64,000 nt of DNA from Planctomycetota bacterium (GTDB lineage: Bacteria; Planctomycetota; Phycisphaerae; Phycisphaerales; UBA1924), in contig JACTNA010000030.1 of assembly GCA_014584315.1 (NCBI GenBank), forward strand, positions 1-64,000. The letters run 5' to 3'. The notes under the pieces were generated by a model. It made no database searches. It was not told where the DNA came from and saw only the letters and a list, made by a program, of their open reading frames with translations. A program made the position numbers and the translations under genes. Below are positions 21,081 to 24,428 of the stretch, piece after piece; the first letter of the stretch is position 1, and each line of letters starts with the position of its first letter.

Positions 21081-24000
21081 ATGACGGAACCGAACGCCCC
21101 CCGCCCAACCCCGCTGCCCACCCGCTACGTCCCCGCCGAGCACGAGGACCGCGTCCGCGCCCGCTGGGACCGGGCCGGCGCGTTCCACGCCGACCCGCAA
21201 CGCGTGCTGGCCGGCCGCACCGCGCCCTTCTGCATCCTGATCCCCCCGCCGAATGTCACCGCGGCGCTGCACCTCGGCCACGCCCTGAACAACTCGCTCC
21301 AGGACATGCTCTGCCGCGCCCACCGCATGATGGGCTTCGAGACACTCTGGATGCCCGGCACCGACCACGCGGGCATCGCCACACAGACCGTCGTCGAGAA
21401 GCGCATCCTGGCCGAAGAGGGCAAGCGGCGCACCGATTTCACGCGCGATGCGTTCGTGGCGCGGATCCAGGCCTTCAAGGACGAGTACGAGGCCACGATC
21501 ACCGACCAACTGAAACGCATCGGCTGCTCCTGCGACTGGCAACGCCAGCGGTTCACCATGGACGAGGTCTGCGCCCGCGCCGTGCGTGAGGCTTTCTTCC
21601 GTCTCTTCCGCGACGGCCTCATCTACCGGGGCAAGCGCCTCGTCAACTGGGACCCCGTCTCCCAGACCGCCCTCGCCGACGACGAGGTCGAGATGGAAGA
21701 AGTAGACGGCCACTTCTACTACCTCCGCTACCCGCTCGTCCACGCGCCCGCCAACCCCGCCGACCCGCGCGACGCGCAGGAGGTCACCTGGAGCGAACTC
21801 GCAGCCCGCGGCTACCCGGGCGCGGACGCCCACGACCCCGACGACAACGCGTGGGTCACGGTCGCCACGACGCGCCCCGAGACCTACCTCGGCGACACAG
21901 CCGTCGCGGTGAACCCGAAGGACCCGCGGGCCGTCCCGCTCCGCGGCCTGTTCGTGCAGTTGCCGCTGGTGGGGCGCGTCATCCCGATCGTGGAGGATGA
22001 CTACGTCGTCATGCCCGATGCGGAAAGCGGCGACGCCAAGGCCCGCTACGCCACCGGGTTCCTCAAGGTCACGCCCGCGCACGACCCCAACGACTACGAG
22101 ATCGGCCGCCGGCACAACCTGCCGGTCATCAACGTCATGGCCCCCGACGCATCCATCAGCGACAGGCACGGCTGGAGCGACGTCGGCGACGCCGGCGTCT
22201 TCGTCGGCAAGCCGCGCGAAGCGGCCCGCGAGCTCGTCGTCCGCGAGTTCCACGCCCGCGGCCTGCTCGAACGCACCACGCCCTACCGCCACGCCGTCGG
22301 GCATTCGTACCGCAGCCACGTCCCGATCGAGCCGTACCTGAGCGACCAGTGGTACGTCAAGGTCACGGACGACCGCCTCCGCGGCGCGGCGCTGCGGGCC
22401 ATGGCGCCGGACCAACGCGCTCCGACTCCCATGGGACGCGTAAGTCCTATCGGTCCCATGGATCCTGTTGCCCCTCCCGCTGCCGACGGTTCACTCCGCT
22501 TCCACCCCGACCGCTACGCCCGAACTTTCCAAACCTGGCACGAACACCTCCGCGATTGGTGCATCAGCCGACAACTCTGGTGGGGGCACAGGATTCCCGT
22601 GTGGCATCGTCGGATGACGATCGAGCGGGGTGACCACGCCGAAGCGGGTGAGTTCGGGGCGATCGGGCTTGACCATCTCGTCCGAGGCGAGTACGAACAC
22701 GGCGTCATCCGCGTCCACAACGAGGCCGGCGAGCCGATCGACCCGCACGAGGTGGTGCGCCTCGATCCCGGGAAGAGCCGCACCTTCGACATTTTCGTCT
22801 GCTACGACGGGTCCGACCCTCGAGACACCGAGCGGCTGGAAGAGGCGGGCTTCACCCAGGACCCCGACGTCCTCGACACCTGGTTCTCCTCCGCTCTCTG
22901 GCCGCTGTCCACCATGGGCTGGCCCGATGCCGAGCAGGCCGCGCGCGACACCGGCATCGCCGACTTCCCCGCCCTCCTCGACGCCTTCAATCCTACCGAT
23001 GTCCTCTGCACCGGCCGCGACATTATCACGCTCTGGGTGTCGCGCATGGTGATGTTCAACCGCTACTTCCTCGACGAGGGCGCGGGCACGGGCCGCCTGC
23101 CATTCCGCGACGTCTACATCCACCCCATCATCCAGGACGGGCACGGCCAGCGCATGAGCAAGAGCCTCGGCAACGGCGTGAACCCCCTCGACATCGTTCA
23201 CTCGCACGGCGCGGACGCCCTCCGCCTCGTCCTCTGCCAGACCGCCACGGCGACGCAGGATGTCCGCATGCCCGTGGATGCCCTCTGCCCGCACTGTGCG
23301 CACACGTTCGAACCCGCGTGGGCCACTACTCCCGCGGGCCACCGCGTCGCCGCCCCGCGCCAGACCTGCCCGGCCTGCTCGAAGCCGATGGTCACCTCCT
23401 ACGGCGTCGCGAGCGGGCACGCGAAGCCGACCGCCGACGCTCCGCTGGCGATGAACTCCTCCTCGCGCTTCGACGCCGGCCGGAACTTCTGCAACAAACT
23501 CTGGAACGCCTCGCGCTTCGCGCTCTCCATTCTCGAACAGCCCGGCGAGCACGACTCCGGCGAACCCGTGGGCCGCGCTTCGCTTTCGCTCGTGGACCGC
23601 TGGATGCTCTCACGCCTCGAAGCGGCCGTTCGTGCGTGCGAGGACGCGATTTCGGGCTACCAGTTCGCCGCCTACGCCCAGGCCGCGTACGACCTGCTCT
23701 GGCGCGATTTCTGCGATTGGTATCTCGAAGCCGTCAAGCCGACGGTCGCGTCGAGCCGCGCCCAGCGGTCCGTCCTCGCCCACGTCTTCGAGGCGACGCT
23801 CCGCCTGCTGCACCCGGTCATCCCGTTCGTCACCGAGGCGATCTACGAGCGTGCCCGCGACATCACCGCCGACCCCCTCGAAGGCGTGACGCTCGCGCCC
23901 ACTCGCACGGGCGGCCTGCTCGCCACGGCCGGCTGGCCGATCCTCGACGACGGCCTGCACGACGAGGCCGCCGAGCGCGAGTTCGAGCGCGTCCGCTCGC

Positions 24001-24428
24001 TCGTAACCGCGATCCGAGACGTGCGCTCGCAGCATCAGACGCCGCCGAAGCGCCGCGTGCGCCTGCACGCGCCGCCCGAGGTCGTTCGTCTCGTCGCCGA
24101 TGCCGAGCCGATCGTGCAGACGCTCGCCGGCCTGCACACGGTGACCGCCGACGCCCCCGACGGCCCCTCGGTCTCGTTCCTCTTCGAGGGCCGCGACGCC
24201 CGCCTGAGCGACCTGGCCGACGCGGTGGACGCCGACGCGGAGCGCGACCGACTCTCGAAACGCATCGCCGACCTCGACCGATCGATCGCCGCGCTCGAGC
24301 AGCGCCTCGCCAACCCGGGCTACTCGGAACGCGCCCCGCCCCACCTCGTGCAGCAGACGCGCGACCAACTCGACCGGGCCCGATCCGACCGCGCCGCCGC
24401 CGCCGACACGTTGGAGTCGCTCCGGTGA
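21081..24428 (+). CDS. valS: Valine--tRNA ligase with two unusual insertions
   Basis: The 1115-residue class Ia synthetase charges tRNA-Val. The HIGH-type motif is HLGHALNN at about residue 72 and the KMSKS-type motif is RMSKSLGNG at about 691. The CP1 editing domain lies between (TTRPETYLGDTAVAVNP near 270) and the C-terminal coiled-coil tRNA arm fills the last 70 residues. It is longer than typical bacterial ValRS (about 880-950). Two inserts account for part of this: PTPMGRVSPIGPMDP near residue 448, encoded by a palindromic repeat, and a CPHC...CPAC zinc-ribbon-like segment at about 735-775, between KMSKS and the anticodon domain. The downstream gene overlaps by GTGA. Confidence 0.95.
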   Translation: MTEPNAPRPTPLPTRYVPAEHEDRVRARWDRAGAFHADPQRVLAGRTAPFCILIPPPNVTAALHLGHALNNSLQDMLCRAHRMMGFETLWMPGTDHAGIATQTVVEKRILAEEGKRRTDFTRDAFVARIQAFKDEYEATITDQLKRIGCSCDWQRQRFTMDEVCARAVREAFFRLFRDGLIYRGKRLVNWDPVSQTALADDEVEMEEVDGHFYYLRYPLVHAPANPADPRDAQEVTWSELAARGYPGADAHDPDDNAWVTVATTRPETYLGDTAVAVNPKDPRAVPLRGLFVQLPLVGRVIPIVEDDYVVMPDAESGDAKARYATGFLKVTPAHDPNDYEIGRRHNLPVINVMAPDASISDRHGWSDVGDAGVFVGKPREAARELVVREFHARGLLERTTPYRHAVGHSYRSHVPIEPYLSDQWYVKVTDDRLRGAALRAMAPDQRAPTPMGRVSPIGPMDPVAPPAADGSLRFHPDRYARTFQTWHEHLRDWCISRQLWWGHRIPVWHRRMTIERGDHAEAGEFGAIGLDHLVRGEYEHGVIRVHNEAGEPIDPHEVVRLDPGKSRTFDIFVCYDGSDPRDTERLEEAGFTQDPDVLDTWFSSALWPLSTMGWPDAEQAARDTGIADFPALLDAFNPTDVLCTGRDIITLWVSRMVMFNRYFLDEGAGTGRLPFRDVYIHPIIQDGHGQRMSKSLGNGVNPLDIVHSHGADALRLVLCQTATATQDVRMPVDALCPHCAHTFEPAWATTPAGHRVAAPRQTCPACSKPMVTSYGVASGHAKPTADAPLAMNSSSRFDAGRNFCNKLWNASRFALSILEQPGEHDSGEPVGRASLSLVDRWMLSRLEAAVRACEDAISGYQFAAYAQAAYDLLWRDFCDWYLEAVKPTVASSRAQRSVLAHVFEATLRLLHPVIPFVTEAIYERARDITADPLEGVTLAPTRTGGLLATAGWPILDDGLHDEAAEREFERVRSLVTAIRDVRSQHQTPPKRRVRLHAPPEVVRLVADAEPIVQTLAGLHTVTADAPDGPSVSFLFEGRDARLSDLADAVDADAERDRLSKRIADLDRSIAALEQRLANPGYSERAPPHLVQQTRDQLDRARSDRAAAADTLESLR
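22425..22466. repeat. Palindromic repeat embedded in the valS reading frame
   Basis: The DNA includes the ten-base palindrome TCCCATGGGA (22427-22436) and, a few bases on, GGTCCCATGGATCC, separated by AAGTCCTATC. Runs of TCCCATGGG/TCCTATCGG units resemble intergenic palindromic elements of planctomycetes that translate as GPMGPIGP-type strings. It is in frame in valS and adds about 14 residues. Confidence 0.5.

Follow-up and report, generated by a model that had tools for sequence, protein, structure and literature searches.

In-frame repeats and RAYT elements in a variable loop of valine--tRNA ligase and in other housekeeping enzymes of Planctomycetota

Introduction

Mobile elements are expected to avoid essential genes or to destroy them. 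Inteins are in-frame mobile insertions in essential genes; they are tied to the host gene, patchy in distribution and able to spread horizontally, and they carry a splicing domain and a homing endonuclease. Closer to the locus described here are the RAYTs (REP-associated tyrosine transposases), which passages of one published account present as separate, single-copy, vertically inherited and domesticated genes that make no copies of themselves (PMC8049555). Part of another report deals with palindromic repeats that lie in frame within the genes of functionally known proteins and are translated with them, in Rickettsia and other organisms (PMC3733652). A survey of the TnpA-Y1 superfamily, in the sections relevant here, gives a class 3 with the signature NHVH; YV..EQ and a distribution in Planctomycetes, and puts over-long members aside, treating them as fused genes or errors of annotation (PMC6006769).

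The elements analysed here resemble RAYT/TnpA-REP genes and REPtrons in their HUH and Tyr residues and in the inverted REPs at both ends of several examples; against the model NF047646, 4 of 11 proteins scanned scored above the cut-off. Unlike those systems, they occur in frame within housekeeping genes, occupy two or three hosts in some genomes, and provide one clear case of transfer between species. In-frame palindromic repeats in known proteins are also a feature of intragenic REPs and Rickettsia palindromic elements (RPEs), but RPEs, in the part of the literature that describes them, are short and without a transposase, whereas here a whole transposase gene is found in one ValRS loop in many genomes. 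Elements of our type A share the signature and the Planctomycetes distribution reported for TnpA-Y1 class 3 in the relevant sections of the survey (PMC6006769), and embedded RAYTs would fall among the long members which, according to those sections, were set aside. With inteins the elements have in common the in-frame mobile insertion in an essential gene, the tie to the host gene, the patchiness and the horizontal spread; unlike inteins, no splicing domain was found here, and the enzyme they carry is an HUH transposase in place of a homing endonuclease. In the open-licence PMC literature, we found no account that links RAYTs to aminoacyl-tRNA synthetases or describes them as embedded in frame in Planctomycetota.

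Comparison of valS sequences makes it likely, in our judgement, that a loop around residues 446-471 of ValRS tolerates inserts and has been a recurrent landing place for REPs and REP-RAYT elements in Phycisphaerales, with a degraded scrap in the genome studied and whole elements in its relatives.

Results and Discussion

A repeat-like segment lies in frame in valS

The window analysed is a 64,000-nucleotide stretch of a Planctomycetota contig (JACTNA010000030.1); G and L numbers denote genomes and loci. The 1115-aa product of its gene at 21081-24428 (+ strand) scored 939.7 bits against NCBIfam NF004349 (cut-off 704) and 783.2 bits against TIGR00422 (cut-off 612.1), and contains the Pfam domains tRNA-synt_1, Anticodon_1 and Val_tRNA-synt_C; it is clearly predicted to be a valine--tRNA ligase (ValRS, encoded by valS). 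At 22425-22469 on the same strand, codons 449-463 form a repeat-like in-frame segment of five 9-bp units, encoding TPM GRV SPI GPM DPV, which the same-genus genome G001 lacks.

A sequence-only reading of this DNA had pointed to a palindrome, TCCCATGGGA, with a nearby GGTCCCATGGATCC, in frame in valS, and we confirmed both the coordinates and the reading frame. The palindrome is at 22427-22436, GGTCCCATGGATCC lies 3' of it, and a second TCCCATGG is present in the segment at 22454-22461. The palindrome and GGTCCCATGGATCC also form a perfect 9-bp inverted repeat (22429-22461), whose arms CCATGGGAC (22429-22437) and GTCCCATGG (22453-22461) are separated by a 15-nt gap. The same reading had estimated a gain of about 14 residues in a surface loop. 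From QWYVK to DWCISRQ, both conserved, the ValRS of the window genome counts 76 residues and that of its congener G001 counts 62, which agrees with that estimate.

The segment falls in a variable loop (residues ~446-471; 22416-22493, + strand), where REPs or whole RAYT elements are found in relatives. An AlphaFold2 model of the window ValRS, built with 31 aligned sequences (mean pLDDT 84.7), places predicted helices at 431-439 and 443-445 before the loop and a strand at 472-475 after it. Since pLDDT was below 50 for residues 451-463, between helix and strand, these residues most likely form a disordered surface loop, and the model thus supports the proposed location.

The segment resembles a worn array of 9-bp units

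The palindrome had been taken for an intergenic planctomycete repeat captured inside the gene. A genome-wide count went against this: no further copy of TCCCATGGGA was found in the window or in the 3,331,690-bp genome (one copy each), and with one mismatch allowed the window still held 1 copy, against 1.49 expected. The palindrome was therefore rejected as a genome-wide repeat. A presence/absence check in valS of relatives showed that the segment is not conserved there; conservation across distant ValRS would have counted against the reading.

The segment is better described as five 9-bp units at 22424-22468, based on the unit NNGTCCCAT. As such an array it scored 27 of 35 fixed positions and took the top place on both strands of the window, where the next highest score was 21, and none of 200 first-order Markov simulations reached 27 (maximum 24); the significance is somewhat optimistic, because the consensus was framed post hoc, after the segment and the arrays of relatives had been seen. 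Against the TCCCATNNG arrays of Phycisphaerales (period 9, GTCCCAT core) the agreement is likewise 27/35, a degenerate match to a post hoc consensus. Exact three-unit arrays occurred in 4 of 201 genomes of the order, with 0 in the reversed control, and the settings of these intact arrays include neighbouring inverted units. One similar intergenic place was found in the window genome (28 bp, 86%, E 0.024); it has a 17-bp core, GTCCTATCGGTCCCATG, in common with the segment. These comparisons are suggestive, but not proof, of a worn 9-bp array. The scrap would then be a short degraded repeat that stays in frame through its period of three codons.

The segment did not behave as a member of an RPE-like dispersed family: the two-unit pattern (two mismatches or fewer) was found 9+9 times in the window genome, hardly above the 7+6 of the reversed control (18 versus 13). 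This near-absence of enrichment would suit a rival reading, in which an ordinary hypervariable loop has grown by slippage and drift, and both its likeness to planctomycete 9-bp arrays and the RAYT insertions of relatives at this loop are coincidental. Such a process could have produced the scrap; the palindrome is unique in the genome, and loop lengths vary freely in relatives, including loops of tandem peptides in G246 and G011. It accounts poorly for an array score above all 200 simulations and every other place in the window, for the 17-bp core common to an intergenic place, and for the entry of repeats into the same loop in relatives. We regard slippage and drift as a possible but rather doubtful origin, and favour a worn repeat in an insert-tolerant loop.

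The idea of a captured repeat was thus right in kind, given the REPs and RAYTs of relatives, and wrong as to which repeat, the palindrome being single-copy. As to its intergenic planctomycete nature, the palindrome is unique, and the full segment matches a worn 9-bp array under a consensus chosen post hoc.

Candidate sources of the scrap within the window genome (G000) were also considered. No type A or type B RAYT was found in this genome, and no matching REP sequence was seen in the scrap; a remnant of either type was therefore rejected. Four Y1_Tnp matches are present (C16:234891, C10:454, C26:167374 and C26:7996; L094-L097), two of which hold an internal stop. In L094 and L095, the two examined for repeats, direct repeats of 95-137 bp and REP-like inverted repeats flank the transposase. 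None of the four genes has a TCCCAT array beside it, so that the idea of the scrap as a REP belonging to these Y1 transposases was rejected. Owing to both results, no transposase is tied to the scrap. By itself the scrap is of low interest, and matters mainly as a pointer to the loop.

Whole RAYT elements occupy the same loop in relatives

We surveyed ValRS in 61 genomes including that of the window; 58 gave full-length frames and 3 gave none. A whole RAYT was present in frame in the loop in 12 of the 58 sequences, as type A in G002, G004, G043, G044 and G047, and as type B in G005, G008, G017, G018, G026, G039 and G051. The large insertions map to residues 453-457 of the window ValRS. As G002 belongs to the genus of the window genome, three genomes of one genus display three states of the loop: short (G001), with a repeat scrap (window) and with a whole element (G002). 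Both filled and empty loops occur in genera g1, g3, g64, g66, g134 and g143. The loop has received at least three RAYT lineages, namely type A, type B and one related to the copies in LeuRS.

REP-like inverted repeats, CGCTCCCTNACGGTCGCGGCTCG, lie on both sides of the type A transposase, and inverted REPs, GTGGGACGGGCNTNCNGCCCGTC, flank type B in G018, with a close variant in G051. Inverted REPs at both ends were seen for type A in G002, G004 and G044, for type B in G018 and G051, and for a third type in G097 and G279; G336/G340, like G097/G279, have other inverted REP pairs around their ValRS inserts. These are several examples, as two exact REP consensus patterns matched only 23 and 10 of 412 loci. 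Loops with a REP only also exist, such as that of G013, which has a 45-bp palindromic stretch. A unit of REP, RAYT and inverted REP has probably entered this loop with the reading frame kept, and translation of the gene is predicted to give the essential enzyme an inserted domain. The sequence-only reading had suggested that palindromic mobile elements enter the loop in frame and make protein; relatives strongly support this, in the bolder form of a whole RAYT with its REPs.

No RAYT was found in the loop of 80 named ValRS loci, a set made up of the 80 best-scoring loci among 486, in which interrupted genes are probably under-represented.

Some observations concern ValRS more widely. A free type A copy in G067 (L347) is flanked by the inverted REP pair that also surrounds type A copies embedded in ValRS, and this genome also carries a type B element in ValRS. 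The valS loops of G246 (L383) and G011 (L053) consist of tandem peptide repeats, SKGLE-like and RFVEAPARSAEAP-like respectively, a third way of loop growth. A second in-frame insertion of ~110 aa, near residues 616-621 (22926-22943 in the window), is found in G015, G017, G022, G025 and G026; it contains no RAYT and is alike among these five genomes.

RAYTs are embedded in several housekeeping genes

A type B query taken from a ValRS insert was run over 400 genomes of the order and gave matches in 71 at E 1e-15 or better. Of 84 listed matches, 75 lay inside host proteins, 8 were free or other and 1 was in a masked contig; the hosts were ValRS (37), RdgB (19), LeuRS (16), MiaA (1), Hsp70 (1) and glycine C-acetyltransferase (KBL; 1). 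Since the query was itself a ValRS insert, the embedded share describes this RAYT family and not all RAYTs. Type A was found in ValRS in 17 cases among the 400 genomes, beside many stand-alone genes, and 19 of the type A rows listed outside ValRS have an internal stop. With both types together, 54 of the 400 sampled genomes have a RAYT in valS. More than one host gene can be occupied in one genome, as in G026, and two or three are in some.

We did not trust the length of an open frame alone, because GC-rich DNA has long spurious frames, and called a RAYT embedded when host sequence was present in the same open frame. This was so on both sides in 71 of 75 cases (by eye for G272 and G354) and on one side in 4: G277 ValRS, G018 RdgB and G329 RdgB, all three at the end of a contig, and G329 LeuRS. 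The evidence on the proteins is sequence-based throughout, and the genomes were for the most part probably assembled from metagenomes; finished or nearly finished ones among those with filled loops include G097, G094 and G068, each of one contig, and G051, of two. In G097 no uninterrupted twin of valS was found, both matches to a loop-spanning query being, at that threshold, halves of the one interrupted gene.

Interrupted hosts still scored above the curated cut-offs (in brackets) for valS (913.8; 704), leuS (928.7; 548.4), miaA (248.8; 148.65) and alaS (520.1; 457.05). The same example proteins match a transposase model, and Pfam and NCBIfam place the transposase between the stretches of host. 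LeuRS has at least two RAYT sites in use (L311, L391). In leuS of G071 (L391/L287) the RAYT is located between EAYWM and GVDLYVGGVEHAV, while the usual LeuRS site is before the editing domain.

Over the phylum, 31 of 392 genomes had matches to the same query, and the best of those outside the order were mostly in short frames. With Pfam identifying the hosts, in-frame RAYTs between two host parts were seen outside the order in AlaRS of G444 (L402) and in FabZ of G606 (L404) and G626 (L409), and in G535 a frame of DEAD-box helicase type holds a RAYT. The long frames L390, L403 and L406 look, by eye only, like DNA methyltransferases or restriction enzymes.

The embedded proteins retain the marks of an HUH transposase. 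Among the 84 type B matches the first His was found in 84, the second in 83 and the catalytic Tyr in 80, and the corresponding numbers for the 75 embedded RAYTs were 75, 74 and 73. Four of 11 scanned proteins passed the NF047646 cut-off of 80 bits (G051 ValRS, 95.2; G001 RdgB, 85.1; G013 LeuRS, 82.6; G242 KBL, 93.1). The other seven were below it but significant (G026, 74.4; G002 type A, 29.4; G097, 78.2; G004 MiaA, 76.1; G320, 75.9; G444, 75.9; G606, 66.6). Of 13 pairs compared, ten had both a dS that could be measured and one or more replacement changes; in these ten the RAYT dN/dS was 0.08-0.23, and this comparison of coding sequences shows purifying selection on embedded RAYTs. The linkers between host and RAYT in 41 ValRS inserts had 0 stops in 2878 codons in frame, versus 39 and 84 in 2796 codons in the other frames; as frames were picked as open, this openness shows constraint only relative to the other frames.

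We lean towards the view that a lineage of HUH transposases is at home in in-frame loops of essential enzymes (ValRS, LeuRS, AlaRS, RdgB, MiaA, FabZ and others) in Planctomycetota. It would be intein-like in its tie to host genes, its horizontal spread and its occasional jumps, would not splice, and would keep its catalytic site.

Elements of the IS605 type that contain a group I intron are known as IStrons. They set a precedent for another explanation, in which the insertions, sitting as they do in essential enzymes, are removed before the enzyme works, either from the protein as inteins are or from the RNA as in IStrons. No Rfam match, to group I intron RNA or otherwise, reached the gathering score in eight loci (50,408 bases), and no intein splicing domain was among the matches of 10 host proteins to Pfam or of 8 to NCBIfam. 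RNA splicing would, moreover, not require frames that stay open from end to end, as these do. Splicing of the inserts is thus not supported by these searches, and we consider it highly improbable; translation as an inserted domain is the reading that we retain.

Embedded RAYTs follow their host gene and have moved between species

The RAYT tree was built from 82 sequences (2 of the 84 left out) and 149 columns, and many of its forks are open. Host labels changed 10 times on this tree, compared with a mean of 39.8 after shuffling, and none of 200 shuffles was as low; the ValRS label alone changed 7 times on the best tree, of which the starred branches force only 1. This comparison shows that RAYT copies cluster by host gene. 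On the same tree, the KBL and MiaA copies fall among LeuRS copies, and the Hsp70 copy adjoins a ValRS copy. Distances between RAYTs correlate with those between ValRS sequences in 27 genomes (Mantel Spearman 0.43, 0 of 5000 permutations), so that part of the RAYT history is vertical.

Clustering by host, correlated distances and low dN/dS are also what one would see if RAYTs had become domesticated domains of the enzymes that contain them, retained because they serve the host and passed on by vertical descent. That explanation has difficulty with the patchy presence within genera, the three or more lineages at one ValRS loop, the REP ends and catalytic residues that are kept, and the recent transfer seen in G097 and G279. 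We think it unlikely, and prefer a mobile element tied to its host gene.

The RAYTs in valS of G097 and G279 (L301 and L302, congeners) are identical over 134 codons apart from a single silent change (RAYT dS 0.011 versus ValRS dS 0.567), and 750 alignment columns over the element and its right flank contain one mismatch. On this comparison, one recent transfer of a RAYT between species is shown. Along the two valS genes, almost identical stretches alternate with strongly diverged ones, a pattern indicative of recombination in the gene. As their valS is generally mosaic, the transfer can be explained by ordinary recombination between species just as well as by any homing.

A course of events can be proposed. 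An HUH/Tyr transposase would insert single-stranded DNA bounded by REPs, and in a single-copy essential gene only those insertions that are open, in frame and in a harmless loop would survive. The host gene may then drive expression of the element and select against frame-breaking deletions, which would favour its persistence. Spread between species would take place by recombination together with the surrounding gene, and an occasional jump may carry the element to another housekeeping gene.

For a RAYT family in frame inside essential genes, frame-breaking loss would be lethal and expression guaranteed, and embedding offers an explanation, open to test, for the persistence of REP/RAYT populations. 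Aminoacyl-tRNA synthetases would gain and lose an entire enzyme domain among members of one genus. Surveys that drop over-long RAYT matches would overlook the greater part of this family in Phycisphaerales. In RdgB of G001 and G002, where the host part includes a possibly non-coding upstream stretch, dS was 0.045 for the RAYT and 0.277 for the host.
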